Shown: piece by piece, positions 705 to 52,715 of the stretch
Position numbering within the stretch: the first letter of the stretch is position 1
How the letters are laid out: each line of letters opens with the position of its first letter
From: Tetradesmus obliquus
Taxonomy: Eukaryota; Chlorophyta; Chlorophyceae; Sphaeropleales; Scenedesmaceae
Assembly (NCBI GenBank): GCA_030272155.1
Contig: CP126202.1
Coordinates: forward strand, 4,547,501-4,611,500
Length of the DNA stretch: 64,000 nucleotides
Reading direction: 5' to 3'
The notes under the pieces: model-generated
Database searches by the model: none
Told to the model about the DNA's origin: nothing
The model's input: only the letters and a program-made list of their open reading frames with translations
Made by a program: the position numbers and the translations under genes

Positions 705-1355
705 ATGCGTTGCTTCCGTGCTTCACCGCAGCAGCAGGGGACAAGCAGTACCAGCAGCAAGCCTGACACACTCCCACCTGCTGGCCCTTCACGCCCTGCA
801 GGAGCCCGCAGAACGCCTTTCAACCTCAATCCTGTGGCAACAATCGCCGATGACAGCAGCACTGTAGCCGCAAACACTGCCAGCTCTAAAGCAATCACCA
901 GCAGCACTCCCTCAGTGCCACCCTCAGCACTTTTCCAGCCAGGAGATGTTATCAGCAACAGCAGCAGCAGTAGTGGTAGTGGCAGTAATAGTAAAAGTAG
1001 TGGAGATGCTTCAACTTCACGTGTGGGTGCAGTTGCCGTTTCCAGTCAACATAGCAGCAGCAGCAGCAACAGCAGCAGCAGCTACAAACTGGAAGCACTG
1101 GCTCACTCAGGCCCCCGCTCAAATGTGTGGAGGGCCACCCGCCTGGCTGACGGCAGCTTGGTGGCTGTCAAGGTGAGAGAATGAATTTGCTGCTTGCAGC
1201 AGCAGCACCACCATCAGCAGCAGCAGCACCTGCAGCATGGTGAACCAACTGGCTGGTTGCAGCAGTTCATAGCCACCCGGCTGGCTGACGGCAGCATAGT
1301 GACTGTGAAGGTGAGTGCACTGCTGGGCACAACTGCTAAGCTGTAGCAACACATA

Positions 1356-1386
<31 letters not shown>

Positions 1387-2265
1387 GTGGTGACTGTCAA
1401 GGTAAGAGCTGTGAGAGTAGTGCTTGATGCAGCACTATCACCTTACCTGACCTAGGGTTTAGGGTTTAGGCCAGCCATCACAGCATGGCCAGGCACCTGG
1501 CTGTTGGCTGGAGCAGCAACAGCAGCAGCAACATGATGCCAGCAGTCGGCACAGTAGCGCAACAAGGCACCCGTCAAGTGTGTTGGCAGCGCTGTCACCC
1601 TGCAGCTTGACTGGACCGCCCACTGTAGGGTTTGCTCGTGTCCAGCAGATAGATCAATAAAGACTTTGCTGCTATGCTGTTTTTGCTGTGCAGGCCCTGC
1701 GCACTGCCTTACCTCTCATTGTAGGGTTTGCTGGTGTCAACCAGCCTAGCCTGACTAGTGCTGCTATGCTGCACGCTGTTTATGCTGTTCATGCTGCTAT
1801 GCTGTGCAGGCCCTGCGCACTGCCTCACTTCTCATTGTAGGGTGTGCTGGTGTCAACCAGCCTAGCCTGACTAATGCTGCTATGCTGCACCTGTTTATGG
1901 TTTATGCTGTTTATTCTGCTGTGCTGCTATGCTGTCATGCTGCTGCAGGCCCTGCGCACAGCCTCACCTGAGCAGCTGGCAGCAGCGTAGGGTTGTTGTA
2001 GGGTTTGCTGGTGTCTGGCAGCCCACCCTAACTATTGCTGCAATGCTGCCATGCTGCTGCAGGCCCTGCGCACTTCCTCGCCTGAGCAGCTGGCAGCAGC
2101 AATGCAGGAGATGCACATCACACAGCACATCAGCAGCAAGCGGCAGCAGCAGCAGCAGGATGAGGTACAACCCGCAGCAGATGGCACAGGTAGCGCTGCC
2201 ACTGCTGGCTCAAAGCAGCATCACATCGTGCAGCTGCTGGACAGCTTTGTGCTGCAACAAGCCCC

Positions 2266-2300
<35 letters not shown>

Positions 2301-2416
2301 CGGCAGCAGCACCAGACAAACGCTCTGCAAGGCCTTGCCAGAAGCAAGACAGAAAAGCCAGCAGCAGTACAGCTGCCCCTCCCGCACCACAACACCCAGC
2401 TGCGAGCCACGATGCT

Positions 2417-2453
<37 letters not shown>

Positions 2454-3564
2454 GCAGCAGCAGCGGGCCTGCTGCTGTGGTGCTTGTGTTTGAGCCGCTG
2501 CAGCAGAGCCTGGCCTGGGTGCTGGCATTTGTACGGCAGAGGTGCGCTGATCTGCTGCTTTTGTTACAGCCTGCCTTTGAACACAGCATCTGCCACGCTG
2601 TTTGCAGCAGAGCCTTGCCTGGGTGCTGGCTCACCAGCTGATGATTATCAAAGAGCCCTCGTAATAGATTGTCACATTGTTACTGCCTGCAGGAGTGGCC
2701 GGCAGGGCCTGCCGCCGCAGGCTGTGCGCAGCATTGCCTGCCAGCTGCTGACGGGACTGGCGCAGCTGCATGATGATCACTGCGTGGCACATCGTGATGT
2801 GAAGCCCAGCAACGTGCTGCTGCGGCAGCCTTTCCTGGTGCAGCAGAGCAAGGTGGGTTGGCGTGCCATTATGCAGGTCCATAGGCACCAAGCCGGTTCA
2901 CCTACCCGTGGGTGGGAGTGTTGACTGTGAAAGGGCTGGCAGAGCTGCATGATGGCCACCAAGTGGCACACAGGGATGTGAAGCCCAGCAACGTGCTGCT
3001 GCGGCAGCCTTTCCTGGTGCAGCAGAGCAAGGTGGGTGTGTGGGTTGACTGGACAGGGCTGGCAGGGCTGCATGACGGCCACTGTGTGGCACACACGGAT
3101 GTCAAGCCCAGCAACGTGCTGCTGCGGCAGCCTTTCCTAGTGCAGCAAAGCAAGGTGGGTTGATGTTGACCTTGGGCAGGGCTGGCGCAGCTGCATGAAG
3201 GCCACAGTGTAGCACGCCGGGACGTGAAGCCCAGCAACTTTCTGGCGCAGCAGGGCAAGGCGGGCTGCTGCATTGTACATCTGCTGCTGCTGCATGTTCT
3301 CTCCTGCAGTCAATGCTGTGCAGCATGAGCCTGCAGCGGCTGACGTCACAAGCTGCTGCTGCTGCTGCTGCTGCTGCCATAAAGAGTTAGCATTATTGCT
3401 GCCCTTGCCTTTTCTGCAGACGACGCTGCGCAGCATGAACCTGCAGGAGCTGACGTCAGCACAATGGGCCCTCATTGACATGGGCAGCGCGGCCATGCTG
3501 CTGCCACCCTCACCAGCAGCAGCAGCAGCAGGCGGTGTCAGTGCAACAGCAGGGCATTCGTTGA

Positions 3565-3595
<31 letters not shown>

Positions 3596-3671
3596 TGGTC
3601 TTGGTAGTGGCTTGAGTGGCCTGTTCAGCTGGATGTCTGGCGGCAGCAGCAGCAGCGGCAGCAGTGGGTCA

Positions 3672-3703
<32 letters not shown>

Positions 3704-3943
3704 AACCCCCAGCAAGCTCTGCTGGCGAGTAGCGGAGGGGTCAGCAGTGCCATTTGAGACACCAGCATACACACCTCCCGAGGTAGGTCAGCTGCTGCTG
3801 CTGCCACTGCTTCTGCAATTTGACATTAGTTTGTGGCCTCTTCGAATGATGAATGCCCAGATTCTGTCTCTGTCCTGACTGGTAACTGCGCTTGTCAAAG
3901 CCCATGTCATGTCATGTCTGTAAGCAGCTTGCAAACATCTGTG

Positions 3944-4003
<60 letters not shown>

Positions 4004-5284
4004 CGCTGCTGCACCTGCCATCTACATCAACGTATGACGTGTGGAGTGCAGCCTGCTGCATCTACGAGGCGGCAACTGGCAGGCTGCTGTTTCCAGTGGA
4101 GCAAGTGGCAGCAGTTAGGTGGGCAGGCTGCTACGTGGCAAGCTAACGTTCTCAGATGTAGACCTTGTGTGTACATGCATGACGTGCTTGGTGCTGTTCC
4201 CCGTGCAGCAAGTGGCAGCAGTCAGGTGAGAGAGTTGCATAATCACTCCAGGCATCTTTGCTTTGTATGCAATGCATGTGGTGTTGGTTACAAGGCAGCC
4301 TGCTGCATCTACGAGGCGGCTACAGGCAGGCTGCTGTTCCCAGTAGAGCAAGTGGCAGCAGTCAGGTGAGGACAGCTGCTGTTGCAAATCAAACACCTAA
4401 ACCATGAATGGCTGGATCAAGCATTAGCACTACATGCAATGCGTGGCATGTTGGTGAGAGTTGGCCTCTTCTTGCTGAAAGCAAGCAGCGATCACATGAG
4501 CTGCAGGTTGTGCAGCTCTGCTGTGCACTATTGCTGGCTGATGGGTTGTTCGTGTGTTGTGTAATGCTGTGACATCATCTTCCTCTGCTTCAATCCACGC
4601 AGGGGCTTGCGCCTGCCGCAGCGCCAGCAGCTGGAGGCGACAGCCGGCGGCTCAGCTGTTGTTACAAACAACAAAAGTAACAGTGTTAGTAACAGTGAAG
4701 ATGCTGAGGAGGTCGAGTTTCAGGTTGACCAGCTGCACCTGGCGCTGATGAAGGGCGTATGCGGGCCGCCACCGCCACAGGTCAGCTCAAGTAACACAAC
4801 AAGTAACACAGAAGTAACATTGCTACCTTCCGGCCGTGGCTTGCGTGATGCCAACATGACCTACACAACCATGGTGTTTTGCTTCATTACTGCTGCCAGC
4901 ACAGGCAGTTCACTTTGAACTGCACCTGAACTAGAAATGGATCAACACTTTGAAGTTGCCCAGCAGCCAGTTGGTCGCCTCCAACCTACTGACCTGCCTC
5001 TCGTGTGCAGTTGGACAAGCAGTTGTGCTGGCGAAACATGAAGCGTGCATGTGCATCCGCGCACCACTACTGGCTCCTCATCCATCCTATGCTGCTGGTG
5101 CTGCTGCTGTCCATGTCCCACTTCCCCGCTGTTTGGGCTGTGTGTGCAGCTGGTGCTGCGGAGCCCTTACGCAGAAGACCTGTTTGCAGACCCAGGCAGG
5201 GGCAAGCTGTGGCTGGAGCAGGAGCAGCAGGAAAAGGACTGGGCCAGAACCACACAACCCTGGACGTGGTTTAACAAGGGCGTT

Positions 5285-5342
<58 letters not shown>

Positions 5343-5708
5343 GTGCGCGGCCGATCTGGAGGCTGGCTAAGCCGGTGCTGCAGCAGCTGCTGGCTGCACA
5401 CACCATGCCCTTGCAGGAGGTGAGAGCACTGCTGTCCAGATGTATGAGAGAGTCCTATGCTTTGGTGCTGAACAGCGCCACAAGCTCGCTGAAAATACTG
5501 TTGTACTGTAGAGGTGCTGGTGCGCTGCTGATAACAACGACAGCTAAATTGGAGATTCATCCACCCTGCTGTCACAATGTACTGTCCTGCAGGCGATTTC
5601 TCTGGCCGACTTTCTGCAGCCGATGCTGGCCTGGGACCCTCAGCAGCGGCCGACAGCAGCAGAGCTGCTGCAGCACCCATACTTCAAACCATTGCTGGAG
5701 GACACACC

Positions 5709-5756
<48 letters not shown>

Positions 5757-6663: not shown

Positions 6664-8922
6664 ATGGACTCCGCAAAGCAGGCCGCAAACAAGGTGTCCG
6701 AGGCTGCAGGCCAGGTAAGTGCTGCTGTGGCTGCTGCTGTCACAGTACATGCATGTGCAGCACAGCTACTGCTAGGTACTGCTGTGCTGTAGTTTTATTA
6801 CACAACATCCACACGGTGTGCAGCACACCTGCTGCTTGGTGCTGTGCTGTTCTGTGCTGCATAATATCATCATGGTGTGCACAGGCCTGACATGCCAGCA
6901 GGGCTGTGGCTAGGCATTGTCCTGCGAGCATATTCCTGCAGCATCAAAGCACGCACATATAGCTGTGCCCATCCCTTTCCAGGGCTGCTGCTCAGCATGC
7001 CTGCTGCCAGCAGCTCTACTCCAGCCTTGTTCTGCCAGAAGCTTCTTATCAGCTCCCAACTTGTCTCATCTGTCTGTACTGAATCGCGCCCTGACCTCAC
7101 TGCGTGCCTGCCACACTGCTGCCACTGCTGTGCATCTCCTCCTTTGCCCCCCTGCAGGCATATGATGCTGCCGCCAACACCCTGAAGGAGGCAGGCAACA
7201 AGATCAGCGAGGCAACCACCGGCGCACAGCACTCCGCCTCTGAGACCGCCACCCAGGTGGGCTTTTTTACTTGTCTGCCACGTGTGTCAGTTTTGTCAGT
7301 GAGGTCAGCGAGGCAAATATTGTCGCACAGCACTCCGCCTCTGAGACCGCCACACAGGTACGGCGGAAGGTGGCTGGTGCTGCATCTGCATGAATTGCTG
7401 GTGCTGCATCTGCCCTGCCCATGTGCTGCTGCCTGCTGTTGATCGGCTCTCAGCTGCACTGTCAGGCACCGCTACTTGCTGGTTCCAAAACATCTACCTG
7501 TCTGCTCGTGTGCTGGCCCTTGTCACCTTGCTGTGTCCCGCAACGGCCAAATGCCGTGCCGTGCTGGTGATGTTGGCTGCCTGTCCACGCCGGCACTGCT
7601 TGTCTGCACCCTGATCCCTGCTTGTCTGTTGCCTTGTGCGTAATGTATTCACAGGCTCAGCACCGCGCCGGTGAGGCCATTGACTCTGCCAAGCGGAACA
7701 TGGGCCAGACTGCCAACAATCTGCCCCTGACTGACTGACAGAAGCCTGTGTGCAATGTGCCATGCTCCATCTGTTGTCTCTGTGCAGGCTCAGCACCGCG
7801 CCGGTGAGGCTGTTGACTCTGCCAAGCGCAACATGGGCCAGACCGCCGAGCAGGCGCAGCACCGCGCAGGCGAGGCCGCTGACAAGACCAAGGCGCAGGC
7901 CACGGTGAGGCACTGTGGCGAAAACAGTAGTTTTTTTTTGCATCTGCTGTTTATCGTTGCATGTTTGGTTGCCTGCCGGGCTGCTGCGGCACGTGCTGTT
8001 GCATTGGTCAGGCTGCTGACCAGACCAAGGCACAGGTTACGGTGAGGAAATGGCTTTAACAATGGCGTGTTACATGATATTAAGTGTGCCTGCTGGGGTG
8101 CTGCACATGCTGTTGCGCTGGCGAGGCCGTTGACCAGACCAAGGCGCAGGCCACGGTGAGGCACTGAGACGATGAACATAGTTGACTGTTGCATGTTTGG
8201 TCGCCTGCTGTTCACCGTTGCATGTTTGCTGTTTATCGTTGCATGTTTGGTTGCCTGCTGTTTATCGTTGCATGTTTAGTTGCCTGCGGTTTATCGTTGC
8301 ATGTTTGATGATTGTCTGCTGGGCTGTTGCGGCACTTGCTGTTGCATTGATTAGGCTGTTGACCAGAGTAAGGCACAGGCCATGGTGAGATGAGGGTTCA
8401 ACTGGACCAAAATGAGAGTGGCGTGTGGCTGAGCTGTGTAGGCTGCTGACTAGGGCAATGTGAAGATGATGAAGCTTTTGTGTTACATACTGTAGTTGAT
8501 ATGCACTACAGCCTGTGTTGGTTGGGCTGCTGCAGCGAGTGCTAAAGCGATGTGTAGGCTGGAGAACTGTGCGTGGTTCTGTAGTTATGTCTTGAAGGCG
8601 TTGGCCACTAGCCACCCGCAGTCCTTCAGCCTACACAGCCCTGCGTGTGTGTGTGCCTGCAGTAATGGCAAGTGCTGCGTTGTTACCAAATACGTGAGTG
8701 TGGCCACAAATGCATATATATAAGCCTTCAACTTGCGAAGCTGGGGTGCAGTAACACCTGTGCATCAAGGTAGATTATGTGATCATCCGTTGACCTACTC
8801 AACCCCCATGTTTGCTGTTTCTGCTTTTGCTTTTGCTGCTGCTGCTGCTGTTGCTGCAGTCTGCCAGCCACACCGTGCAGCACAAGGCTGATGACATCGC
8901 TGACAAGGCACGTACCTCCTAA
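6664..8922 (+). CDS. LEA-like (late embryogenesis abundant, group 3 type) protein
   Basis: Small hydrophilic helical protein of a kind that protects proteins and membranes during drying, cold or salt stress. The minimal model uses exons 6664-6714, 7158-7256, 7788-7904 and 8860-8922, all in phase 0, giving 109 aa. The residues are dominated by Ala, Lys, Gln, Glu and Asp with repeats such as AANKVSEAAGQ, AGNKISEATTG, AQHRAGEAVDSAKRN and HRAGEAADKTKAQAT, the amphipathic 11-mer style of group 3 LEA proteins. It lacks a signal peptide, so it is probably cytosolic or chloroplast-directed. Extra exon copies in the introns are mostly phase 0 and could lengthen the repeat array if spliced in, so the true isoform is not settled. 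A TGTAA signal lies near 9242. Confidence 0.75.
7308..7356 (+). repeat. Copy of LEA exon 2 end plus donor
   Basis: The end of exon 2 (AQHSASETATQ followed by gtggg) recurs about 100 bp downstream and is followed there by gtacgg. Confidence 0.75.
7648..7738 (+). repeat. Upstream copy of LEA exon 3
   Basis: A near-identical acceptor and exon start (AQHRAGEAIDSAKRNMGQTA) begins at 7655, 133 bp before the real exon at 7788. It then runs through NNLPLTD to a stop with no donor in sight, so it is either an alternative terminal exon or a dead copy. Confidence 0.7.
8010..8390 (+). repeat. Three copies of LEA exon 3 end plus donor
   Basis: The real exon ends at 7904 with ADKTKAQAT and gtgagg. Copies reading ADQTKAQVT, VDQTKAQAT and VDQSKAQAM, each followed by gtgag, end near 8041, 8155 and 8385. 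The intron between also repeats gtttatcgttgcatgttt four or five times (8176-8310). Confidence 0.75.
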
Positions 8923-11580: not shown

Positions 11581-11609
11581 ACCAGACGCCCAAGAGCCAA
11601 CCCAGGACC

Positions 11610-13892: not shown

Positions 13893-14790
13893 GCATTGCA
13901 GTCTGAGGCACAAACAGCACGCAGTTCTTACGTGGGCGGGTACACCAACAGATGCTCTATGCTGTAGTGCTGTGTAGGTGCGACATACTGCCAGTCAACA
14001 GGCAGGCTCATCAATCATTCACTCGGTGCGTTGCTGCTGTGAGCGCATGCAACACCAGACGCGGCCCAGCAGTGCTAGATACTATCATGCGTTGCATGGC
14101 TGCTTCAAGCACACACCATTGCAGTCTGAAGCACAAACAGCATGCAGTTCTTACGTGGGCCGGTACAACAACAGATACTCTATGCTGTAGTGCTGTGTAG
14201 TTGCAACACACTGCCACTCAACAGGCAGGCTCGTCAATCATTCACTCGACACGTTGCTGCTGTGAGAGCATGCAACACCAGACCCGTCCCAGCAGTGCTA
14301 GATACTATCATGTGTTGCATGGCTGCTTCAAGCACACTCCATTGCAGTCTGAAGCACAAACAGCATGCAGTTCTTACGTGGGCCAGTACAACAAAAGATG
14401 CTCTATGCTGTAGTGCTGTGTAGTTGCAACACACTGCCACTCAACAGGCAGGCTCATTAATCATTCACTCGACACGTTGCTGCTGTGAGAGCATGCTACA
14501 CCAGACCCGTCCCAGCAGTGCTAGATACTATCATGTGTTGCATGGCTGCTTTAAGCACACACCATTGCAGTCTGAGGCACACACAGCATGCAGTTCTTAC
14601 GTGGGCGGGTACAACAACAGATGCTCTGCGCTGTAGTGCTGTGTAGTTGCAACATACTGCCACTCAACAGGCAGGCTCGTCAATCAATAAATCGGCGCAT
14701 TGCTGCTGTGAGAGCATGCAACACCAGACCCGTCCCAGCAGTAATCAAGTATCATCAGGCGTCGCATGGCTGCTGCAAGCAAACACAACA
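13893..14790. repeat. 223-bp satellite-like tandem repeat, four copies
   Basis: The anchor gcagttcttacgtgggc starts at 13921, 14144, 14367 and 14590, an exact 223-bp period three times. Units differ by only a few substitutions, so the array is young. The last unit decays after about 14750. Confidence 0.9.
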
Positions 14791-17608: not shown

Positions 17609-19017
17609 AAGCTTGAACTGTCCGTGTAGTCGTGGTGGTCTGCAAAGCGTGCCACGGTGGGCAGCTGGGCATGGTACAAACGTAGCATCTGCATTTTGCA
17701 ACAAATCAACACAGCTTGCAAGCAGACAGCCATGCTGGCATAGCAACCTGCTGTATGTGGCAGGCACAGTAAGGCACAGCTGCCAGTGCTGCTGCTTTGG
17801 TTTGCTTGCATCCCAACTGCACAGCAGGGCCCCCACCTGCCAGCAGCAGCAGCTTCAAACTGCTAGTAATTTTGAGCTCCAGAATTCGCCTTGATCACAC
17901 AAGAAGGATGTTTGCAGGAAACTGTGTAGAATACTAGTCCTCAACAAACTCTGTGCAGCCACACTAGCTGCACGCGCGCAGCAGCTGCCGGTGGGCCTGA
18001 AGCGGTGTTGCGCACTATGTAACAGATATGACAGTTGAAACTGTATGTGCAGCGCACAGCGCCAAGCAGCAGAGCGCAACAGCAGCGGCAGGGCACTTGG
18101 CACACCAGAACTGCAGTGCCTGATCAGCCAGCAAGGGAAGCCCAGAAGTATTACATTACACATCAAAACATGTTGCAGGCAGCAGCACCCACAGCAACAC
18201 TCTACAGCGCAAGTTAACATATGTAACAGTCGAGTCGGGGCACTTCAGGGCAACGTGTTTTTAGCTCTTTTCTTGCAGTACACTGTGCCACTGCTAACAG
18301 CTCAAATTGATTTAGATTCGTCGTTGAAAGCTTGACATTTATATGTAGGCCACTTGTTCGCTACGTTTGTACCATGCCCAGCTGGGGAGGAGAAGGGTTG
18401 GAGAGTAAGAGTTCACTCACACACGGTGTCGAACAGGTCCCATAAGCGCCTTTGACGCAGGCGTGTAAGGACGCGTCGGTGATTGTTCTGTGGTATGTAA
18501 AGATTACATCCAAACATGCAGCTGCGCCGTGTGGTGGCAAGAACTGCGTCTGAATTCAACCACGCTGCGTTGGTTGTACTGTTTTGGAGGCGCCACATAT
18601 CGCCTTGACCATACTCTCACCTTCAAATTGAAGGTGGCTGACCGTACCCACTGATGGGCTGCTCACGTTGGCAGCAAAGACAACATTGGTGGCCTAGTCT
18701 AGCGCTGTTACGGTGGCTTCTGTCTCGACTATGCTGAATCAAATAATCGCAACACATCACAGCAGCATTTCAGTCCTGGGTCCGCCATGACTTTGATGCG
18801 ATGCGAACCGAAGCGCGGATTCGCTGGAAACCCTAACCTCCAAGGGTGCCAAGGGTTTTTGTGCTCTGGCGCATTTGCTGAAAGGAGCATTGCACTTCAA
18901 CCTGAATTTCCGTTTTTGTTGGTTCTGACAAAGCTTCCGGTGGGCGCCCAGTGCCACTCACTACGTCGACAAGTGCAGCAGCACGCATACTGGTAGACAT
19001 GTCTGTAGTTCTGCAGT
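17609..19017. other. Intergenic region upstream of the SBP gene
   Basis: May hold the SBP promoter and an earlier SBP exon (an acceptor-like site follows 17688). A 61-codon minus-strand frame at 18413-18598 has no recognisable domain. No other support for a gene. Confidence 0.4.
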
Positions 19018-19309
19018 TGATTCGGTCGTGACTTTTACTGTCAATCGATCGATCCTGACCAGCGTCAGTGATGTGCTGGACGGCGCTGCAGCAGCAGCAG
19101 ACTCTAACGCGGACGGTACCCAAAGCCAGTCCTGCACGGTGCCTCTGAGTGATGATGAATCAGAGCACTGGAAGCTGCTGATTCCTTTCTTAAAGGTGGT
19201 GGCAGAAACGCCAGCAAAGGCGGACAGGGCTGCTCAGGCCACCACCAGCACCAGCAGCAGCAGCACTCTCAGCTACCAGTCTTGCGCTGGGCAAGCTGGG
19301 CTGGTGTAA
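19018..19309 (+). pseudogene. BTB/POZ-like exon fragment
   Basis: An acceptor (ttctgcag) precedes an open frame reading DSVVTFTVNRSILTSVSDVL and, further on, VPLSDDESEHWKLLIPFLK. This matches the BTB/POZ pattern of a hydrophobic strand, a helix 'HxxxLxxxSxVL' and 'DDxxxxxxLLxFL'. The frame ends at a stop at 19309, some 60 bp before the hAT terminus. The C-terminal half of a BTB domain was not found on the far side of the transposon. Either it is a degraded gene or one exon of a gene whose other parts I cannot recognise. Confidence 0.45.
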
Positions 19310-19367
19310 GAATCCTGGACTTGGGGACGAAGGCCCGTTAACATGGCCTGCCCTGCCTACGTTACGT

Positions 19368-21214
19368 AGGGGTGTGCCATTTCACGGTTTCAAGCCCCGG
19401 TGTAAGAAATTTCACTGAAATATGAAATTTAATGAAATCTGAAACGGAAAAGTGAAACGACTGAAACATGTCTGAGCAGCAGCAGCAGCAGCAGGCGGGA
19501 GGGCAAGTTCAAAATGCTGGCCCTGCCCGCATCGGTTTGGCGCGTTCCCGGCATGCGCTGGACGCCGAAGATCCATCGATTAGCAAGAAACCAAGGGGTG
19601 CAGCGCCCAGCTTTGCGCACAACGAGATCAGCACTGTGAACGGCCAGAAGAGGTGCAACCACTGCAACATGTCTGTACCTGGCAACATTACACGCGTTAA
19701 GACCCACCTGTTGACGTGCCAGAAGTTCTTGACAAGTGAAGCCGCTCAGAAGGTAGCAGAGTCTAACCAGGAGGTGGCAGCTAAACTGAAGGCACTCAAG
19801 TGAGCAGCAGCAGCAGCAGCAGCAGCAGCACTACTTGCAGCAGCAGTCATGGTGTGACTTGCATACTAATCCCTTGTACGCTTTTGCAGGGAGAAGCGCG
19901 GCGGGCAGACAACGCTCACTGGACTGCCAGTTGGCGCTGGCGGCAGTGGTGCTGGCAGCAGCGCAGGCAGCGGCAGCTCAACAGGTGCTGGCAGGTCCGC
20001 ATCTGCTTTTCCGGTCAAGGTGTACCCTAAATACAGCGCAGCTGACATTGAGGAGCACAACGAGGCCATCGCCATCTTCCTGTACGGCTGCAACCAGCCC
20101 CTTAGCCTTGTGGAGCACCCTGACTTCCAGCAGATGGTGTTCACGCTTGCTCCGCACATGAAGGGCAAGCTGATTGGCCGCAAGGCGCTGGCCACCACCA
20201 TGCTGGACAAGCGAGATCTGGTTGTGGCAGCAGCGATTGTGGATCCCAGGTGCGCGTCAGCAACTGCAGCAGCTGTGACGTGCGGCATATACATCACATG
20301 CAGCCACACCTCAGTAATGCTTGCAGGTGTGGAGGGTTGTGGTGCTGCTTTAACCTGCATTGCCAAGCTATTCAGATTGCTGTCATGTTGAATGCAGCCA
20401 TGGCAGCAGTTTGCTGTCAACCTGGTTCTGCTGCCTGCTCTGAACACTTGATTCTGGTTGTCTGCACCTGCAGGTACAAGGACAAGCTGAGCAGCATGCC
20501 AGCTGCAGACGTGGTGCGGGGGGAGGCATTCATTGAGCAGCTTGCAGGACGCATGATGGGGCAGCAGGCTCAGACCAAGGCAAAGGTGAGCAACAGGTAC
20601 AGCAGAAATACCGTATTTTGGTGGCGCATGTATATTACTCAAGCAATTGCCTGTATACTGTAGCGCCTGTATACTACTCAAGCAAGTGCCCAGCTAACAG
20701 ACGTCATACCTGATTTGAAGGCATGTTAATTTGGCTTGGATTTGCCACTGCTCAACACTCACTGCTGGCAGTGAATTGCATTCATCCCAAAAAATCAAGT
20801 GCCGCCCACCGCATTGTTTAACCGCCCTGCTGTAGGGGCAACTCATGAATTACAAGAGCAGGCCCCGGGAGATTGGCATAACGCCTGCAGCAGTGGCAGC
20901 CACGCAGACGGCTGGCGTGGCGCCTGAGACCTTCTGGACTGACATCTCGCACAGCTGTGCTGAGCTGTCTGAGGTAGCGCGCATGCTGCTGTCCATCCCC
21001 CCAACCAGCGCCACCAGCGAGCGTGTGTTCAGCGCTGTGAGCCAGGTGTGGGATACAGGGCGCAGTTGCATGGCCAGCGCACGTGTGCGCAAGCTGCTGT
21101 TCATCTACTTCAACCGCAAGGCGCTCAGCCGTGACGGAGCAGTGCGTGATGCAGAGGACTTTGCAGCGTACGTGAAGTGGCTAGACAGCTTGAACAACGA
21201 GGAGGAGCAGGAGA

Positions 21215-21246
<32 letters not shown>

Positions 21247-21760
21247 CAGCAGTAGGAGCAGGAGCAGCTGTATTTCAGCAGGTCATGTGGGCGAATGCCA
21301 CCTGCAGCAGCAATGGCTGCATTGTGCATCTTGATGCTTGTGTGGGTTTGTGATTGCCTGTATTTCTTTGTGTGATTTTTGATTTTATTACTATAATCAC
21401 TAGTGATATTGCAGCTGCAGATTTGAAGAAAGGTTCTGACTTCTTAAGGGACCCATCCTGGGCACTGCATGCTGCAGGCTGCTGGCTACAGCCTTCACCC
21501 ACTGGCAGTGGATAAGCTGAGCGTGGCAGAGTGTGTGCTGGGCTCCTACTGGTGTTTAGCCCTATTGTAATGTAGTTATATGAAAGTATGAACACTTTTA
21601 GATGCTTTTGACGTGAGCTGCTGCTGTCCTGCGTCTCAAAGCGGACGTTTTGCAATGATTTCACTCCGTGCAGTGGGGCGTATCGACGAGTGAAATTTGA
21701 AACGAAATTTGAAATGAAATGAAAGGAATCGAAACGTGAAATTTGAAACGGCACACCCCA
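19368..21760 (+). mobile_element. hAT-superfamily DNA transposon, internally deleted
   Basis: About 2.4 kb. The ends are inverted: aggggtgtgccatttca at the left and, read inward from the right, tggggtgtgccgtttca. Both subterminal regions are packed with GAAAT/GAAAC motifs (19405-19467 and 21690-21750), possible transposase-binding sites. It carries one four-exon gene. I could not find an 8-bp target-site duplication of the kind hAT elements make, so either the exact ends are off by a few bases or the duplication has decayed. Confidence 0.8.
19468..21255 (+). CDS. hAT transposase-derived protein lacking the catalytic core
   Basis: Exons 19468-19799, 19890-20249, 20474-20585 and 20836-21255 join in frame to 407 aa. 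The N-terminus has a BED-type zinc finger (CNHCNMSVPGNITRVKTH ... C, residues about 57-82). The middle has the conserved pre-catalytic segment (LVEHPDFQQMV ... RKALATTMLDK). The C-terminus has the DPRYKDKL box and the hAT dimerisation region (IPPTSATSERVFSAVSQVW), ending in a poly-Gln tail. In full-length hAT transposases a few hundred residues holding the DDE catalytic residues lie between TTMLDK and the DPRYK box. Here the two are about ten residues apart. The protein could still bind DNA and dimerise but should not cut DNA. It may be a repressor, a domesticated gene or a recent deletion derivative. Confidence 0.8.
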
Positions 21761-27923: not shown

Positions 27924-27966
<43 letters not shown>

Positions 27967-30900: not shown

Positions 30901-30983
30901 CCTTCTTCTGGCGCTACAGCTTTGACAGCGCCAGCATGCAGGTGCTCACAGACAGGCCGGTGACGGACTTCATCGTGCAGTAG
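23038..30983 (+). CDS. Large BRCT-domain protein
   Basis: Exons 23038-23179, 23321-26878, 27343-27497, 27973-28077, 28400-28571, 29073-29234 and 30838-30983 give 1,479 aa with all phases consistent. One BRCT domain (residues about 42-125) contains KQELQRLAHSFGAAY, GELVQGRTTHLIC and the Trp motif IVTYDWLLAS. It resembles BRCT repeats of TopBP1-like DNA-damage proteins, so a phosphopeptide-binding nuclear role is likely. The 3.6-kb second exon encodes a long disordered Gln/Ser/Ala-rich and acidic region with three psi-K-Q-E sites (K near 990, 1061, 1206) that fit the SUMO consensus, and a duplicated DPAE(A/Q)LLQDMR box. The conserved-looking C-terminus (WWVELLRFYSSKEL, then NPFFWRYSFDSASMQVL) matches no family I know. 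The last three introns are filled with exon-edge copies. Confidence 0.75.
27040..27290 (+). repeat. Two upstream copies of BRCT-gene exon 3 start
   Basis: Acceptor plus first codons (ctgctgcagggtatgccgag, then SS(N)DDDEA) occur near 27046 and 27170 before the real exon at 27343. The flanking ggggccctggcagct text is repeated as well. Spacing is about 125 and 170 bp. Confidence 0.8.
27570..27807 (+). repeat. Two downstream copies of BRCT-gene exon 3 end
   Basis: The end of exon 3 (AKPMTKQLGAHLAHLSQ to QQQ and a gt donor at 27498) recurs with a donor near 27657 (gtgcgc) and at 27807 (gtgagc). Period is 150-160 bp. The copies are more than 90 percent identical by eye. Confidence 0.85.
28735..28985 (+). 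repeat. Three upstream copies of BRCT-gene exon 6 start
   Basis: Copies of cag plus GEWWVELLRFYS occur at about 28740, 28846 and 28937 before the real acceptor at 29072. The middle one is degraded (GGAAM...). Two are preceded by (CTG)n tracts like the real acceptor. Confidence 0.8.
29311..30285 (+). repeat. Eight downstream copies of BRCT-gene exon 6 end plus donor
   Basis: The real exon ends at 29234 with LLRGMAHEHVRLRQVQ and ggtgagt. Eight copies follow, near 29325, 29430, 29564, 29701, 29837, 29973, 30098 and 30235. The central ones have a 136-137 bp period. Several lost one base inside the exon part, while seven of the eight keep gtgag. Confidence 0.9.
30281..30470 (+). repeat. 118-bp direct repeat in the last intron
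   Basis: The text gtgagcagcctgcttggacg and about 45 following bases occur at 30281 and again at 30399. A short array of tctcaccg units sits between them. Confidence 0.75.
30570..30775 (+). repeat. Two upstream copies of BRCT-gene last exon start
   Basis: ggctgcag plus GEFKLSKVKKVPAASS occurs at about 30577 and 30712, before the real acceptor at 30837. Period is about 125-135 bp, and the preceding intron text (caagcaacagccattgc) is copied with it. Confidence 0.85.
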
Positions 30984-36900: not shown

Positions 36901-39900
36901 CCGGGCACTTCATGCACTCCCAGTTGGTCCGCTCTTCGCCAGTGAAGGGGTTGGTCCTTTCGCCATTGCTGAAGAAGCCGCGCTCACACGCTACACATCC
37001 GCCGTATGCGTTGTAGAACTTGCGGCCAGAGCCGGCCTCGCAGACTGCAGGGCAGAGCAGGAGAACACACATGTGTACACGCAGACGTCAGGTGATTGTA
37101 ATGCGTTTACAGCACAACAAGGGGGAGCAGCGGCAGGTCCAGGCAAGTAGCAACAGCTGCCGCCTTCTGACTACGTGCTGTGGTGCATTGTGTATCACCA
37201 CGCAGCAGCTGCTGTCTCACATGCCTGTTAGATATGGCAGGTTGAGGCTGAATTACATGCCACATGACAGTGCATGCATGAGGTATGCCAGCTGGCTCGT
37301 ACGATCTTGCAGCGCAGTGCACCACGACTGAAATCGGTTGGATGAGATCACGTTGCTCTACTCTTTATCTTCCATACTAAAATACAAACACGAAATAATT
37401 GACTGATGCAGAGCCATGTGGCACTTGCCTGTGCAGTTTGCCACAGAAATGGAGCCTGACTCAAGGGTAGTGCTGTAGGGTGGGCAAGACTTGCACCTGG
37501 CTGACACATCTGCAAAAGTTGCTTCGCCGCCTGTGCTACTGCTGTAACGGCCTACATGTACACGTGTACACGTGCAGCAGCACAAACTTCAGTGAGCGGC
37601 CACAGGTTGTGTAACAGCCTGCACTGCAGCAAGGTTGCATGATTTACAGTGCATGTCTGTACGCTGTCAACATGCACACGCTGCTGCAGCCGTTGATGCG
37701 CAAGACAAAGAGCTTTGCATGAAAACCACGACAAGGCTGTATGTATCTAGCCGCTGGTGACTCTGCGTCCTGAACCGGCGCTCCACACAGGAGCACTGGG
37801 ATGCATGCTGCTGCATTACAACTGCCGCAAGGTCCTTGTGGCCAGCACACATGTATAGCGCACCTATAGGGCACTCAGCAACGTCCAGCTTTGCCTGGTC
37901 CTCTAGGCTCCCAGGAACAGGCTTGGATGCCCCTGTGTCATACCACTTGTCACGTGGGGTGAGGCCTTCCGGGTTGTAAATGCCAAATCCAGGCTGCACG
38001 AAGCAGTTGATCACGGACTGCTTTTCCCCTGGCTCACTCAGCGTGGAGCGCCCCTTGCCACATTCAGTGCATGGAAGCTTGGACCTGGCGCGCAGGAAAA
38101 GCAAGTCACAAGTTACAATCTCTATGCATTGGAAGCAGGCAAGCCTGCTTGAGCCTATGATCTTCCGTGCGTAAAGTAGTGCGTAAAGTAGTGAAGGGAC
38201 AGGCCTGGTAAAGGAAAAGAAGGGACAGGAGCTGGGTACGCAACACCAACTGAAGTGCAATAAAGTAAACGAATAACTCCCTGTTTATTAGAACATTCAC
38301 CAACAGAATGCGCACGAGAGCGCTTTGTGACGCATGGTCCTATCAGCAGATGTGCCGTGCTTTGTCTGCACTTGCCTACACGCGTTCGTCAAAAAAAAAC
38401 ATTGATGACCGCTGCAGCAGTACAAAGGAAGCCTGCGCCTTGCCTGCAGCACTTGAGATTCACTGCCAGCACCACTCAAATATTGCAACTGCTCCCACTA
38501 ACTTGTCATCACTCACCCGCAATCAGCTCATGACCCTTCTGGCCACTTCCAAGCGCAATTGCTTACATATTATTAACGAAAGACTTTGATGAAACAAACT
38601 CTCCCGCGAGCAACCCATGAGCCGTCCGAGCACTCCACAGCTGCTTTTGTATGAATGAATTTTTTTGATCAAAAAATTCTCTCCCACAAGCAGCCCATGA
38701 GCCGTCGCGGCACTCCGCAGCTGCCTTTGTAAAAATACAAAATTTCAAAAGGTATTGATGAAAAACTTTCCTGCGAGCAGCCCATGAGCCGCCGTTGCAG
38801 CACCCAACAGCCGCCTTTGTGTAAATATACATTACATTACATTACATTACATAATATAATATAATATAAATAATATAAATAATATAAATAATATAAATAA
38901 GAAAGAACACTCACCCACAACACATCAGCAGTCTGAGCACTCCACAGCTGCCTTTTTTAAAATAAATAACAATGAGAAAAAATCTCACCTGCGAGCAGCC
39001 CATGAACCGTCCAGGCACTCCACAGCTGCCTTTGTTCAAACCAAATATGTTCTGAAAAAACTCAATCGCAACCAGCCCATAAGCCGACCAAGCACTCCAC
39101 AGCCACATGCGCATTCATAAATCAAACTGTATAGAAAACTCACCCACGAGCAGCCCAAGAGCTGTCCGAGCACTCCACAGCCACCTGTGCATAAATATAC
39201 AAAATACACTCAAGAACATAAACTCACCGGCGAGCGGCCCATCAACAGTCCGAGCACTCCACAGCTGCCTTGTAATACCAAAGTATTAAATAACTAAATA
39301 CAAATTTAAGCAAATAATACATAAATTTTTAATCAAATGAATAATTAAGCAGGTAAATAAAGAAATAAGCAGATAAATAAATAAACAAATAATAAATAAG
39401 TACACAAATAAATTAAAAAATATAAAATTATAAATTTGCTATAAAATAACTCACCCACGAGCAGCCCAGGAGCCGTCCGAGCACTCTACAGCCGCCTTTG
39501 CATATGCTCCAAATCCAGCCGGGTTCATGCATCTGTCGCCGTATGGGCCCACTTCGTACCCCTCTCCGCAGTACACCGTGATAGGCCTGCACACAGTGGC
39601 TGAGGCCGTGCCAAAGGTCATAGCTGTGGCGCCAACTGTATTAATGGGGCAGGGAAATGCCCTCCACGTGCTGATGCTGGCATCCAAGGACAGATCCCGC
39701 ACAAGGCCCCAATCTGGCATGATGTCTGCAACAGGCACAGCACAGGCAGCACATACCGCATTGTGTTTAGAACCACAAAACATGGCCCCAGCATACGGGC
39801 AATGTGCTGAGCCTGGATGCCTGTATGGTTTGGATGAGGACGGTGACAGAATGGCAGGGAGCACGCTGGCTAGCCGTCCGCTCTCACAGCGTGATCTATG

Positions 39901-44207: not shown

Positions 44208-44242
<35 letters not shown>

Positions 44243-47384: not shown

Positions 47385-47455
<71 letters not shown>

Positions 47456-49056
47456 GTGCTGTTGTGCTGCACTTGCAGGAAAATGGCATCAAGCCAGAGT
47501 ACGGGCTAGCACATGCTGGCAAGCAGCAAGCAGAAGCAGCAGGGTGAGCAGCATGCGGCCTAACCAGATGCACGGCTTCTGAGGAGCAGCAAGCAGCAGC
47601 AGGGCGAGCCTGCTTCCTTCACGTGGGGTCGCCCTCCTCTGACGTGCATACCAACAGACAGACACATAAGTCAAAGCACAGATAGAGAGCATGAATGAAG
47701 CAGCAGGGTGAGCAACATGTGTGCGCCTGAGTGGGCTGCATTTGCGGAGCAGCTGTTGCTGCCTGCAAGCAACAGCAGGGTGAGCCTGCTTCATTCAGGT
47801 GGTTTCCCCCCCTCCTCTGATATGCATACCACCAGGCCGGCACAGAAGTCAAAGCACAGATAGAAAGCAGACAAGTGCTGCCCTCTGCAAGCCTGCAGCT
47901 TGCCTGAAAGGGTTGTAGCTTTGATGGCTCACCACTGCTGCACTGTGTAACGGCCGCATGCTTGCAGGCAGTTGCTGCTGCAGCAGCTGCAGCAGCAAGG
48001 GGTGCCGCTGAGGGCAGTGCGGGTCTACACTTCACCCTTCTCCCGCACAGTGGAGACAGCCAGCATTGCAGCAGCATCTGCAGGCCTGGACCCTGCAGCA
48101 ATGCAGGTGATCCTGCAGCAGCATGAGTTCTCCTACGTGTTCAGCACTAGAGGAAGCTCGGCATTGGTGCTACTGTCGCTGCATCAGATGCAGCAGCTTG
48201 CTGTGTGGTTAGCAATGCCAAAATGTTCACGTGACTGCTCTGCACTCACATCTCAGAGGCAGTTGGCATCCCTTGCCAAGCCCGTGTCATTCACCACCCT
48301 GCATGATGGCTACCTGGTGTGCTCTACTTCTGCAAATATATGACAACAAAATGCTTGCTTGTGTTATGTCCTGCGGTTGCAGGTCACACCACTGCTGCGA
48401 GAGCGCTGCTTTGGCTCAAAGCTGGAGCTCACGTGCCACGACAACTACTGCCCAGCATGGGAGGGTGATGCTGCTGATCCTGGCAGCAAGCCATGTGGCT
48501 GTGAGGATGGGGAGAGTGTGCAAGATGTGTCTGCTCGGGTGCAGCAGCTGTTCCAGGTGAGCATGTGGGCGGTGAGTGGTGATAAACGAGTGCATGCATG
48601 TAATGTTCCTACGTCTGGTGTGCAGCAAGTGTTAACAGGCGTGTGTGTGTAGCAGCTGCTGCATGTCACTCTGTGCACACACTGTGCATCTGTGGCTACT
48701 TGTGCAGTCCGTGTGCACAGCTGGCGTGCGTGCTGCAGCCTGTGCGTCTGTATTGCGGCACTAAAATCATGCACTTCTGTGCTGCGCAGGAGCTAGAGCA
48801 GCAGCACGAGGCGCAGCATGTGCTGCTGGTCTCACATGGCGACACACTATCCATCCTGCAAGCAACATTTCATGGCACGGACCTAGCGCAGCACAGGCAG
48901 TATGGCCTGGGCACAGCAGAGCTCAAGCAGCTGAATGGTGCTGACGGCAGCAGGGGGGCGGTTGAAGCGGACGCAGGGGCAGTGGCAGCAGCGGAGGCAG
49001 TAGCAGCGGAGGCAGCATGTGAGCCGGAGTTGGTGCTGACGGCAGCAAGCAGCTGA
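47131..49056 (+). CDS. Histidine phosphatase (phosphoglycerate-mutase-like) family protein
   Basis: Exons 47131-47156, 47254-47311, 47479-47543, 47968-48106, 48383-48556 and 48790-49056 give 242 aa. The RHG motif VLRHGRSKANE lies at residues 10-20 with the catalytic His at 13. Next come ENGIKPEYGL, the substrate-loop segment VYTSPFSRTVETA, and the second catalytic His in LLVSHGDTLSILQ. The layout matches small plant-type phosphoglycerate-mutase-like phosphatases, whose physiological substrates are mostly unknown. The start was chosen because MLPVRNVYW joins in frame to VLRHG across the first intron. A C-terminal Ala/Glu-rich tail is extra. A TGTAA signal lies near 49264. Confidence 0.85.
47387..47455 (+). 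repeat. (CTG)n microsatellite, about 22 units
   Basis: The longest uninterrupted triplet run in the window, located in intron 2 of the phosphatase gene just upstream of the acceptor at 47478. Confidence 0.9.
47540..47875 (+). repeat. Copies of phosphatase exon 3 end plus donor
   Basis: The real exon ends at 47543 with the codons of AEAAG and gtgagc. Further agcagcaggg(t/c)gagc junctions occur near 47603, 47705 and 47780, in a roughly 165-180 bp tandem unit that also repeats cctgcttc and aagtcaaagcacagatag. Confidence 0.75.
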
Positions 49057-49484
49057 CCCTTGCATGTAGCTGGGCCACAGCACATTTGCTGTGGCGTGTC
49101 GTGTCAAGGCCAAGAATCCTCATTCAGCAGCAGGTAGAGGGGAAGCAGAACACCAGCAAGCGGTTCTGTGTTATACTGGCAGAGTCATTGTCAGTGACTG
49201 AACCACAGACCTTCTCGCTCTGGTGCACAGTGATGTTGTATAGGTGCTTCCGTATTGCTTGCTGTGTAACTGCTGCGCCATTTGATGTAAGCAGTATCGG
49301 CTTTCCTGCTGTATTGTGCAAACGGAAGCTGCCTTGCTGTTGAATAGCGAACCTGCTGTGCCTTGCCTGCTGGCACCGATCCTCGCCATACCCGGAACCG
49401 CACAGTAGTTCGAGGAGCTCATTTGACTAGTCAAAGGACACAGGCTCGGCCGCGTGCCTCGGAGCTGCAGCAGCAGCGAGCACC
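49057..49484. other. Phosphatase 3' UTR and CWC15 promoter region
   Basis: No exon seen. The TGTAA near 49264 is a likely poly(A) signal, so the remaining 220 bp would carry the CWC15 promoter and 5' UTR. Confidence 0.5.
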
Positions 49485-51276
49485 ATGACTACGGCACACA
49501 GGCCCACCTGGGCTCCCGCCCGTGGTGGCGAGGAGCAGGGTGGCATGCGCATCTTCGCGCCCAGCAAACAGGTGTCCGCGAAGAACCAGGCAGCGCACAC
49601 GAAGATGAAGTTCAGGTGGGGTGCAGGGCTTGTGCTGCTGCTGTGCACAGTGTTTGTGAGCTCGGCACAAGACTCGATGCAGTACGGTGGGGATGTATAT
49701 GCCCTGATTGTCGGTTTGTATCATGTGAGTGCAGGCAGGAAGGGCAGGCTGCTCCCCATGAACTGAAGAGCCAAGACCTCAAGGTGTGAGCAGCAGCAGT
49801 GGCAGCAGCAGCTCCAGCAGCGCTGCGTGCCAGCAGCAGCAGCAGAGGCACTTCTAGCTTTGTCCCAGCTGTTTCATATTTAGCAGAGGCTTGCGCTTCA
49901 GCAGTACTAATGCATATCGGCAGCTCTTATTGTGCTGGAGGGAATGGCGGCATCAACTCGCAGCCTGGCAGCCTGTCGGCAAGGGCGGCACCAGTACTGG
50001 TGTGCCAGCAAGCATGCATGTGTATGCAGCAGAGGCAACTGGTTGATTGCGCAGCAGCGGCAGGTTGCTGCTGGCATGACATTACTGTAACTTGCAGCAG
50101 GCGCTATACGTGCGCGATTGTCATTGTACTGCGCTGAACATGTGTTTAGCAGCTGCTGCCGGATGTTGCTTGGTGCAGGCGCTCTACATGCGTAGCTGCG
50201 CATCCACGTGTTGTGCGCGCTGTCGCGCTCTTCAGCATCGCACCTCTGTGCCGCTTGCACTGCTGACTGCTGCCGCTGCATGCTGCTGCTGCTGCTGCTG
50301 CGTCATGCTGCTGCAGGCCAAGCTTGAGGAGAAGGAGCGCAAGCACTTCCAGAAAACAAAGGGCATTAACTTTGAGGGTGCGCAGGCGCCAACAGCAGCA
50401 GCAGCAGCAGCAGTGGCTGGGGTGCAATGGCATGATTATGTTAGCAGCAACACCCACGGCTTTAGCAGCAATAGCAGCAGTGGCTGCAGCAGGCTAACAT
50501 GCAGTTCGCTGTGCTAATGCTTCAACAGCAGCGGCAGCAGCATCAGAAGCGTCAGCAGCAGCAGACCACTGCTTGATGGCTGTAGTGCCAGAACCAATTG
50601 CAGTACCACTTCTGCGACAATGATGCTCGCCGTATCGCAGCCTATATCATTGCTTACTGTCGCTGCAAAGGAGCGCAAGGCAGACATGGAGGCCGCCGGA
50701 ATAATTAAGGACTTCACCTGCAGCTCTTCTCAACCCTATAATCAACTGTTTCATCTGCTTTGCATGTATCTATGCCTGCAGAGGAGCGCAGGGCAGACCT
50801 GGAGCTGCTGGAGGCTGCAAGGATACTAAAGGTGATTGACTAAATCAATGCTTACGTTGTATCTGTGCTTTGCATGTGCCTGCAGAGGAGCGCAAGGCAG
50901 ACATGGAGCTGCTGGAGGCTGCGCCGCCAGATGAGGGAGGCGGCGGCAGCAGAGCGCTGATACCCAACGCGCGAGATGCGGACGACGTGGATGCAGATGC
51001 AAGCAGCGACGACAGCAGCGACGTGAGTGGCACCGCCTGGCCTTGGCTTTGATATAGGAGTTGCTGTGCAGCAGCGTATGGAGGTACAAGCAAGTGAAGC
51101 TGTCGTGTTGTGCGAGTGGCTGCAGTCCCAATAGTGGCAGCACTCGCACGAGTTACGAGCCTGCTGATATGTTGGGATGCCAGCCTGCAGCACATGGCCC
51201 TTGCAGACAGGTGCAGGGCAAATGCAGCAGCTGGAGCTGCTGTGCCGGCTGATCTGCTGTGCAATGCATTGCATTC

Positions 51277-51309
<33 letters not shown>

Positions 51310-52009
51310 CAGTAGCTGCCCCACAACAGCGCTGTGCTATGCTCGCTGATGGCAATACATCTTGTGACACGTGCCATAACAACAACAGGATGACGATGAC
51401 GACTCGGATGACGAGGCCGAGCTCAAGGCCGAGCTCGAGCGCATCCGAGCTGAGCGCGCAGCAGAAGCGGAGCGGCGTGCAGCAGAGGAGGAAGCGAAGC
51501 GGCAGGAGGCCATCCGCAGCGAGGTGCTAGGGGGCAACCCACTGATGGCTGGGGCGGGGGAGGTGGACTTTGGCGTGAAGCGCAGGTGCGAACAAAACTG
51601 CTGGGTATTTTCCAACCTCTGGAGATCATACATTGGTGAAAGTGGCAAGATGTCGTCTGATGAACTGCTTCTCAGCTGTCGCCTCGGGTTTTAGGGTGTT
51701 GTGTTGTGGTGGTCTTGAGCCCAGAGGGGGAAGCCAAGCGGCAGGAAGCGATTCGCAGTGAGGGGCAGGAACCCGCTGATGGCTGGGGCAGGGGAGGTGG
51801 ACTTTGGCGGCGTGTAGCGCAGGTGAGGCAGAGGAAGGAAGCTGGCATGTGTTGCAGTGCTGGTGTTTTCTGGTGTTGTGTGTTGTGCAGTGAGGTGATT
51901 GTTATTTGGCAGGTAACCGCTTTGGTGCAAGCTCGGCAGGGGATTTGAGAACCTGGTCTTGTGACCTGAGAACGTGGCAGATATCAACTAACAACTGCAT
52001 GCTACTGCA

Positions 52010-52043
<34 letters not shown>

Positions 52044-52210
52044 GCCACACGTGGCGCAAGGACGTGGTGTTTTGGCACCAGGCTGCTCGGCAGACAACGC
52101 ACTGATTCCACATGCATGTGCACCCCTGTGCTTGCATGTGTCTGCAGGTGGGACGAGGGGGTGGTGTTCAAAAACCTGTGCAACATCGCCTAACCTCCAC
52201 TCTCGGCTTG

Positions 52211-52246
<36 letters not shown>

Positions 52247-52322
52247 ATGTTTGCTGTAGGGTGGACGCGGACGTGGTGTTCAACAACTGTACAACGTCTG
52301 CCTAACCTCCAGTCTGTGTTTG

Positions 52323-52364
<42 letters not shown>

Positions 52365-52611
52365 ATGTTTGATGCAGGTGGGACGAGGACGTGGTGTTCA
52401 AGAACCAGACTGCAAGGCACATGTTCTGCAAAGTCTCATCCATGTGCTGCCCTGTGGTTGTGCTTTTATATGTCTGTGCTGCGCCAGGTGGGACGAGGAC
52501 GTGGTGTTCAAGAACCAGACGCGCGGCGAGGCCAAGGCGGCGCGGCGCTTCATCAACGACACCGTGCGCAGCGACTTCCACAAGAAGTTCCTGGAGCGCT
52601 ACATCCGGTGA
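49485..52611 (+). CDS. CWC15: Spliceosome-associated protein CWC15
   Basis: CWC15 (Cwf15/AD002) is a component of the Prp19-associated spliceosome core. Exons 49485-49615, 49735-49783, 50317-50377, 50886-51022, 51389-51585 and 52488-52611 give 232 aa, close to the 229 aa of the human protein. The N-terminus [15 protein letters not shown] and the C-terminus [10 protein letters not shown] ... [20 protein letters not shown] are the family signatures. Between them lie a charged helix ([13 protein letters not shown]), an acidic stretch ([16 protein letters not shown]) and a long Glu/Arg/Ala coiled coil ([19 protein letters not shown]). Three exon edges are copied into neighbouring introns and the last exon's end is copied after the stop. 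Confidence 0.93.
50665..50832 (+). repeat. Two upstream copies of CWC15 exon 4 start
   Basis: The exon 4 start [13 protein letters not shown] (real acceptor at 50885) is preceded by copies reading [13 protein letters not shown] near 50670 and [13 protein letters not shown] near 50782, each with an AG acceptor. The spacing is about 105-110 bp. Confidence 0.85.
51718..51832 (+). repeat. Downstream copy of CWC15 exon 5 end
   Basis: A copy of about 100 bp of exon 5 ([11 protein letters not shown], then the coding text for [12 protein letters not shown] with frame-changing differences) ends in cgcag followed by gtgagg, as the real exon ends in cgcag and gtgcga at 51585. Confidence 0.85.
52146..52415 (+). 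repeat. Three upstream copies of CWC15 last exon start
   Basis: Acceptor plus RWDE(G/D)VVFKN occurs near 52149, 52259 ([10 protein letters not shown]) and 52378, before the real exon at 52488. The period is about 110-120 bp. Two of the copies are preceded by (CTG)n tracts and share a tgcatgttt motif. Confidence 0.9.
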
Positions 52612-52715
52612 CACTGTGAATTCTACAAGAAGTTCCTGGAGCGTTACATCCGGGGGCATCGTGCTCTACAAGAAGTACCTGGAGCGCTACATCCGGTGAC
52701 ACTGCGAACTTCACA
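52612..52715 (+). repeat. Two copies of the CWC15 C-terminal codons after the stop
   Basis: After the stop at 52611 the text for KKFLERYIR is repeated with a period of about 52 and 53 bp, ending near 52654 and 52698, and the second copy is again followed by tgacactg. This duplication includes the stop codon and lies in the 3' UTR. Confidence 0.8.

Follow-up and report, generated by a model that had tools for sequence, protein, structure and literature searches.

The window analysed here is a 64-kb stretch of the genome of the green alga Tetradesmus obliquus (C12:4547501-4611500; the genome comprises 104.66 Mb in 17 contigs), in which the edges of exons, together with their splice sites, were found to be repeated within neighbouring introns. 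A sequence-only reading had pointed to such copies in six unrelated genes, those of a kinase, a LEA-like protein, a BRCT protein, a cysteine-rich protein, a phosphatase and CWC15. Pfam searches with nine protein pieces from the window recognised kinase, SBP, hAT dimerisation, BRCT, histidine phosphatase and CWC15 domains above the cut-offs, and the product of the cysteine-rich gene matched Ephrin_rec_like above its cut-off. The C-terminal piece of the BRCT gene had no Pfam match, and the LEA-like gene gave only a sub-threshold Apolipoprotein match in Pfam, the LEA label being that of the earlier reading. An Rfam scan of the window returned nothing at gathering scores. A published table for T. 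obliquus lists 57% GC, a mean intron length of 462 bp and 7.8 introns per gene (PMC5966456).

Exon-edge copies in the window genes and in ClpP

Self-alignment of the window after low-complexity filtering gave 79 local pairs against only two distant ones, and the repeats are therefore regarded as local duplications and not as a dispersed element. A search within the window for introner-type sharing among introns likewise found only these two distant pairs, both of them at TACAT microsatellites. Low-complexity matches, as well as pairs under 40 bp or over 1000 bp apart, were left out, as were 12 arrays with a period over 350 and exons under 40 nt. Exon-intron models were obtained from a small self-trained gene finder, whose exon edges are mostly ab initio; its first two versions were dropped, as they produced micro-exons or tiny genes. 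For the key counts the gene models were jackknifed, with the arrays excluded from training, and copies that include fewer than 5 nt of intron do not enter the codon and splice-site counts. The full sample comprises 354 kb, that is, the 64-kb window and 290 kb fetched from eight other contigs.

Clear exon-edge copies are present in the kinase, LEA-like, BRCT and CWC15 genes (Table 1). The cysteine-rich gene is a weak case, with a copy of edge 39455 at 39130-39193 (period 310) and further copies elsewhere; near the phosphatase gene a repeat with a 164-bp period is present, for which the candidate exon lacks coding support. In the kinase gene, the copied end of exon 2693-2852 reads LTGLAQLHDDHCVAHRDVKPSNVLLRQP... 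and this segment lies within the gene recognised by Pfam Pkinase. Copies of 3' splice sites lie upstream of the real exon and copies of 5' splice sites downstream, as had been described, and this geometry is the necessary outcome of any tandem duplication across a border. The period of 80-180 bp proposed from the window agrees with the 354-kb sample, where 60 of the 75 border entries fall at 96-164 bp. It had also been proposed that only one copy at each locus keeps the full frame; one copy alone does join the rest of the exon, but many others are open over the copied stretch (2 stops in 1348 copy codons across the sample), kinase copy 3052 being an example. At the BRCT repeat 27417-27814, three successive modelled exons of 155, 93 and 93 nt are all in frame, and its units may possibly be true tandem exons.

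Table 1. Positions of the exon-edge copies and related repeats within the 64-kb window
Gene	Feature	Position	Strand	Period, copies or basis
Kinase	Copies of 3' splice site and start of exon beginning 2063	1664-2100	+	period 116; copies upstream
Kinase	End of exon 2693-2852 (catalytic-loop segment) with 5' splice site, then copies	2750-3253	+	copies at ~2933, 3052, 3178
Kinase	Start of exon beginning 3420, copied upstream	3304-3458	+	period 110
Kinase	End of exon 4003-4118 with copies 4192-4230, 4295-4370	4048-4370	+	self-alignment, gene model
LEA-like	End of exon 7158-7256 with downstream copy	7201-7359	+	period 101
LEA-like	Start of exon 7788-7904, copied upstream	7652-7847	+	period 133, 94% identical
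LEA-like	End of exon 7788-7904, downstream copies	7864-8389	+	self-alignment, gene model
BRCT	Start of exon beginning 27343, two upstream copies	27044-27424	+	self-alignment, gene model
BRCT	Tandem 151-bp units, 2.6 copies	27417-27814	+	exons 27343-27497, 27556-27648, 27707-27799
BRCT	Start of exon 29073-29234, upstream copies	28736-29106	+	self-alignment, gene model
BRCT	End of exon 29073-29234 with 5' splice site, ~8 downstream copies	29185-30468	+	self-alignment, gene model
BRCT	Start of exon 30838-30983, upstream copies	30533-30885	+	period 136
Cysteine-rich	Copies of exon end, edge 39455	39130-39504	-	edge weakly supported, LLR (log-likelihood ratio) 3.2
Phosphatase	Repeat near the gene	47533-47869	.	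164-bp period; candidate exon LLR -0.1, no coding support
CWC15	Start of exon 50886-51022, upstream copy 50781-50819	50756-50922	+	self-alignment, P0001
CWC15	End of exon 51389-51585 with downstream copy 51722-51825	51483-51825	+	self-alignment, P0001
CWC15	Start of exon 52488-52608, upstream copies 52146-52175, 52376-52411	52000-52520	+	self-alignment, P0001
CWC15	Last codons and stop codon copied in 3' flank	52577-52717	+	period ~45-88; no splice border

For CWC15, the exons could be set by homology only, independently of the gene finder, using tblastn with the annotated T. obliquus protein P0001 (UniRef). P0001 matches exons 49485-49616, 49735-49783, 50317-50376, 50886-51022 and 52488-52608 unchanged and exon 51389-51585 with one replacement, and additional partial matches occur at 50781-50819, 51724-51808, 52146-52175, 52376-52411 and 52667-52696. 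The true exons account for the whole protein, which contains none of the copies. Extra edge copies were thus found at three of the six exons, and the array at 52133-52406, with a period of 118 bp, implies one further unit. For ClpP, whose exons were set by protein P0241 (97% identical to the query and encoded on a 1325-bp contig), homology only placed extra edge copies at all five exons, none of them present in P0241. A copy spliced as an exon was therefore not seen in either protein. Two duplications span a stop codon and not a splice site, one of them being the CWC15 repeat at 52577-52717. At sampled locus L014 (8925-9099), 50 bp of a modelled gene end, including the TAG, are copied 125 bp downstream with 98% identity, the copy ending at the stop.

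Abundance of border-crossing arrays in the sampled genome

Across the 354 kb, 118 local duplication arrays were detected, amounting to 39.2 kb. The splice border of an exon running past the array was held by 73 of the 118, as compared with 33.0 ± 4.3 after shifting (maximum 50 in 300 local shifts), and outside the window the corresponding count was 59 of 89 arrays against 26.0 ± 4.0 (maximum 36). When single units were placed instead, 79 of the 118 arrays crossed a border, 16.5-23.3 being expected locally. Border-crossing repeats are commoner than other intron repeats, a result that speaks for the earlier reading and not against it, and the copying of exon edges is not confined to the window, as it is seen in unrelated genes on all nine sampled contigs. 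The border entries comprise 42 donors and 33 acceptors, and the arrays reach a median of 50 nt (24-124) into the exon, with best identities per border array of 81.5-94.6% (10th-90th percentile). A whole exon was copied in only two of the 118 arrays, 27417-27814 being the candidate exception. Extrapolation from the 59 arrays in the 290 kb outside the window would give roughly 21,000 such arrays genome-wide.

Duplications are present in 43 of the 237 introns of better-supported gene models, and 24.4 kb of approximately 193 kb of modelled intron consists of array sequence, in agreement with the earlier suggestion that the copies make introns grow. The decoy exons that had also been foreseen are evident at the level of prediction, where 23 of 72 copies were accepted as exons by the gene finder of this analysis, and this constitutes a hazard for annotation.

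Such counts could in principle arise from the gene finder or from the assembly, considering that exon edges are mostly ab initio and that the analysis drew on the assembled sequence. The excess is also weak among the top-scoring exons, with 17 arrays against 12.5 at LLR of 25 or more (it is strongest at LLR 15-25, with 33 against 9.9), and it was absent at LLR of 30 or more in an earlier run that was not jackknifed (12 arrays against 13.9). We nevertheless consider an artefact very improbable, given that the models were jackknifed, that the edges in CWC15 and ClpP are fixed by independent proteins and that Pfam supports all ten submitted genes of the sample (COX15, ClpP, EF-hand, ACT, FAD-binding, HAT_KAT11, SNF2/Helicase_C, NIF phosphatase, RPE65 and SRP TPR), indicating that the sampled genes are ordinary and conserved. 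An assembly artefact is unlikely in particular because the copies have diverged from each other.

Probable neutral duplication, and possible border preference and use of the copies

The excess over shifted positions may suggest that transcription, splicing or chromatin steers duplication to borders, with RNA-DNA hybrids ending at exon edges, or nucleosome edges, as conceivable routes. Plain random shifts overstate the surprise, however, as they ignore which duplications genes tolerate. In a geometry null restricted to introns between better-supported exons, where only placements keeping the protein intact were counted, 30.0 of 55 arrays (.545) were expected to cross a border and 50 did so (odds ratio 8.3), a result which still favours steering, as does the strong excess at exons of 120-250 nt (48 arrays against 16.1). 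Forward simulation was used as the measure instead: neutral duplications with the observed periods were introduced into 162 array-free introns, accepted if the protein stayed intact, allowed to diverge and detected by the same kind of search. With equal mutability, 66-73% of the detected families crossed a border, and the share was 78-87% when introns were set to change faster than exon-derived sequence, as compared with 46 of 50 observed families in 231 introns. The observed count differs from a fraction of.73 (p 0.0008); at.87 the expectation would be about 43 of 50. Moreover, three of the four families classed as lying inside introns are themselves exon copies (27045-27424, 27417-27814 and 52133-52406), and the fourth, B5 13926-14242, has short copies of the exon edge 13852 nearby in a looser search. 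In view of the simulated fractions and of these exon-derived families, most of the apparent targeting is accounted for by geometry, tolerance and visibility, and a modest border-targeting residue may remain beyond them.

Acceptance and visibility alone thus reach up to.87, and this argues against steering, as do the lack of any excess where exons exceed 250 nt (12 against 11.5), the similarity of donor and acceptor sides and the existence of copies that span a stop codon. We therefore hold steering to be rather improbable. Breakpoints marked by AG or GT were also considered and rejected, since on the real exon neither was above expectation at exon-side breakpoints (12 of 39 against 14.4, and 9 of 33 against 10.7). 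Among the 33 acceptor-type edges viewed from the copy, 18 had GT, more than the exon-based 10.7, a figure that is an unfair expectation for intron flanks. Gene conversion was dropped by argument only. The common mechanism proposed earlier holds to the extent that one recurrent process of short duplication operates in unrelated genes, but a mechanism tied to splice junctions is unneeded when simulated neutral duplications cross borders in 66-87% of families.

Neutral short tandem duplications, together with the loss of those that break the protein and the decay of introns, probably explain most of the exon-edge copies. Unit size, tandem layout and divergence, taken together, suggest repeated short tandem duplication, and units of roughly 100-160 bp would have to be duplicated frequently in this genome. 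Where exons measure about 120 nt and introns about 250-270 nt, the units that a gene can tolerate would for the most part straddle one border: a unit within an exon would break the protein, while a border-crossing unit would leave one intact edge joined to the exon, its other copy turning into intron. Further duplication may then enlarge the arrays. The intron halves would diverge fast and gain indels and the exon-derived halves would change more slowly, being compared with a constrained real exon, and the aged outcome would look like an exon edge and its splice site pasted into the intron. By analogy, the duplications may come from staggered breaks that are filled in and then closed by end joining, a route reported in PMC8355091 for human and mouse cells, where fill-in by Pol alpha-primase at break ends gives short tandem duplications.

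The pattern of decay is broadly consistent with such a history. At the 44 of 72 borders where both parts could be aligned (simulated fractions of.68,.53 and.47 in runs B, C and D, in which introns change faster), identity is 91.5% for the exon parts and 81% for the intron parts, a divergence ratio of 0.45. Among 39 non-abutting copies, similarity of the intron flank is still significant in 21, and many are hence old tandem units in which the intron side has decayed. In noncoding DNA, 107 exon-edge copies were counted; 36 of them stop 0-8 nt beyond the border and one stops shortly before it, within the exon. No copy from the interior of an exon was found. A special copying process that stops exactly at the splice site was considered for this pile-up and rejected, as the pile-up arises in the fast-intron simulations too, at 13-39% in runs B-D (.31 in C,.39 in D), although the observed 36 of 107 was obtained with looser alignment limits. 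The exon gap rate is likewise reproduced (.0038 observed;.0039 in run C and.0042 in run D).

The neutral model reproduces much of the statistics, though not all, and a number of results weigh against it. The period was fed into the simulation, which hence does not predict it; intron-only families (4 of 50) are fewer than the simulation yields; several copies are 92-98% identical and lack significant intron-flank similarity; and ends inside the exon make up 1.5-14% in runs B-D (5-14% in C and D) as compared with the single case among 107. The fast-intron runs yield fewer mismatches than observed in introns (.12-.13 against.163) and at third positions (.11-.12 against.169), and more intron gaps (.033-.034 against.025). 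Mismatches at codon positions 1, 2 and 3 number 73, 58 and 207 (about 1,230 sites each), a third-position excess of 3.16 (bootstrap 2.5-4.2) where the simulations give at most 1.96. The standardisation for composition is imperfect, since its classes rest on present-day bases and third positions rich in GC may mutate faster, and this codon bias is therefore taken as suggestive; between copies, the mismatch rates at the three positions are.089,.092 and.160. The GT or AG is the same as at the real site in 67 of 72 copies, or in 69 of 71 by another count, as compared with.74-.85 in simulation. Of these copies, 19 have under 20 nt of aligned intron and are favoured by detection, and among the other 53, 48 keep the dinucleotide (p 0.056 against.815). 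For the two stops in copy codons, the expected numbers are 7.1 if the rate of the copies themselves is applied (p 0.03) and 10.8 if that of introns is (p 0.001), and nonsynonymous changes lean slightly towards conservative ones (mean BLOSUM score -0.15 against -0.49, p 0.007).

Third-position bias, retained splice dinucleotides, scarce stops and conservative replacements are what would be seen if copies were kept through use, that is, if spare or alternative edges and splice sites were under purifying selection and served as mini-exons or in regulated splicing. Copies that keep their site also have median splice scores close to the real ones (6.38 and 6.38 for donors, 6.94 and 8.01 for acceptors), and an in-frame mini-exon is possible in 21 of 38 donor-side copies where one third is expected (p 0.006). 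On the acceptor side, however, 13 of 33 are in frame, which is no excess; 8 of 13 indels within exon copies break the frame; and the copies are absent from the CWC15 and ClpP proteins. Use as cassette exons was rejected, as partner splice sites are not enriched. On balance, retention through use seems unlikely as a general explanation. We infer that most copies are unused and represent debris, a minority of them possibly being in use.

Relation to known systems and other features of the sampled DNA

The closest precedent found is the potato RdRp gene, where a tandem duplication over an intron-exon boundary is described as having produced a new intron (PMC4974935). The duplicated stretch spans a boundary and splice signals are copied in both cases, and the potato gene may serve as an analogue for copies coming into use; there, however, a new intron resulted, whereas in the alga the two protein-checked genes show no sign of the copies being used, and 43 of 237 introns of the sample are affected. 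Intron gain through duplication of AGGT-containing exon segments, described in the same source, also involves tandem duplication within a gene but requires an exon-internal unit that supplies both splice sites, while the algal units cross borders; that route would make intron length equal to the period, from which the three modelled introns compared depart (length/period 155/179, 138/112 and 187/136). Direct repeats have been described at exon-intron borders (PMC11782384), although those repeats measure 4-30 bp and pair both ends of an intron, in contrast to algal copies of 40 bp and more that derive from a single border. In the open-access literature, subscription papers lying outside the search, no description was found of exon-edge copies in comparable numbers, or of their presence in an alga.

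The events are thus of a known type and their abundance is unusual, and the maintenance of some copies is a testable question. A stronger proposition is that a large share of the copies are selected as splice-competent and coding-like sequence, or are made preferentially at junctions, such that about one in five introns would carry a spare edge serving alternative splicing or a nascent intron; we regard this as rather unlikely. The arrays show introns lengthening by means of adjoining exon sequence, which provides ready-made proto-exons and proto-introns, and intron gain by tandem duplication becomes testable within one species, with many natural replicates of differing age.

Other features of the sampled DNA were noted in passing. 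A hAT-transposase-like gene with a hAT dimerisation domain (Pfam 6e-11) lies at 18374-21255 on the forward strand of the window, flanked by cellular genes. A clean array of four 223-bp copies, about 91% identical, occupies 13894-14786 in a long noncoding stretch adjoining the SBP-domain gene. At L027:1383-9133 (C14), a dense satellite-like block has copies 95-100% identical with several periods, unlike the exon-edge arrays. A strong bias towards TGCAG/CAG is seen on both strands in the window and in L001-L029, with 1259 occurrences of TGCAGG against 75 for the reversed control, and the modelled proteins are rich in poly-Q, poly-S and poly-A runs.

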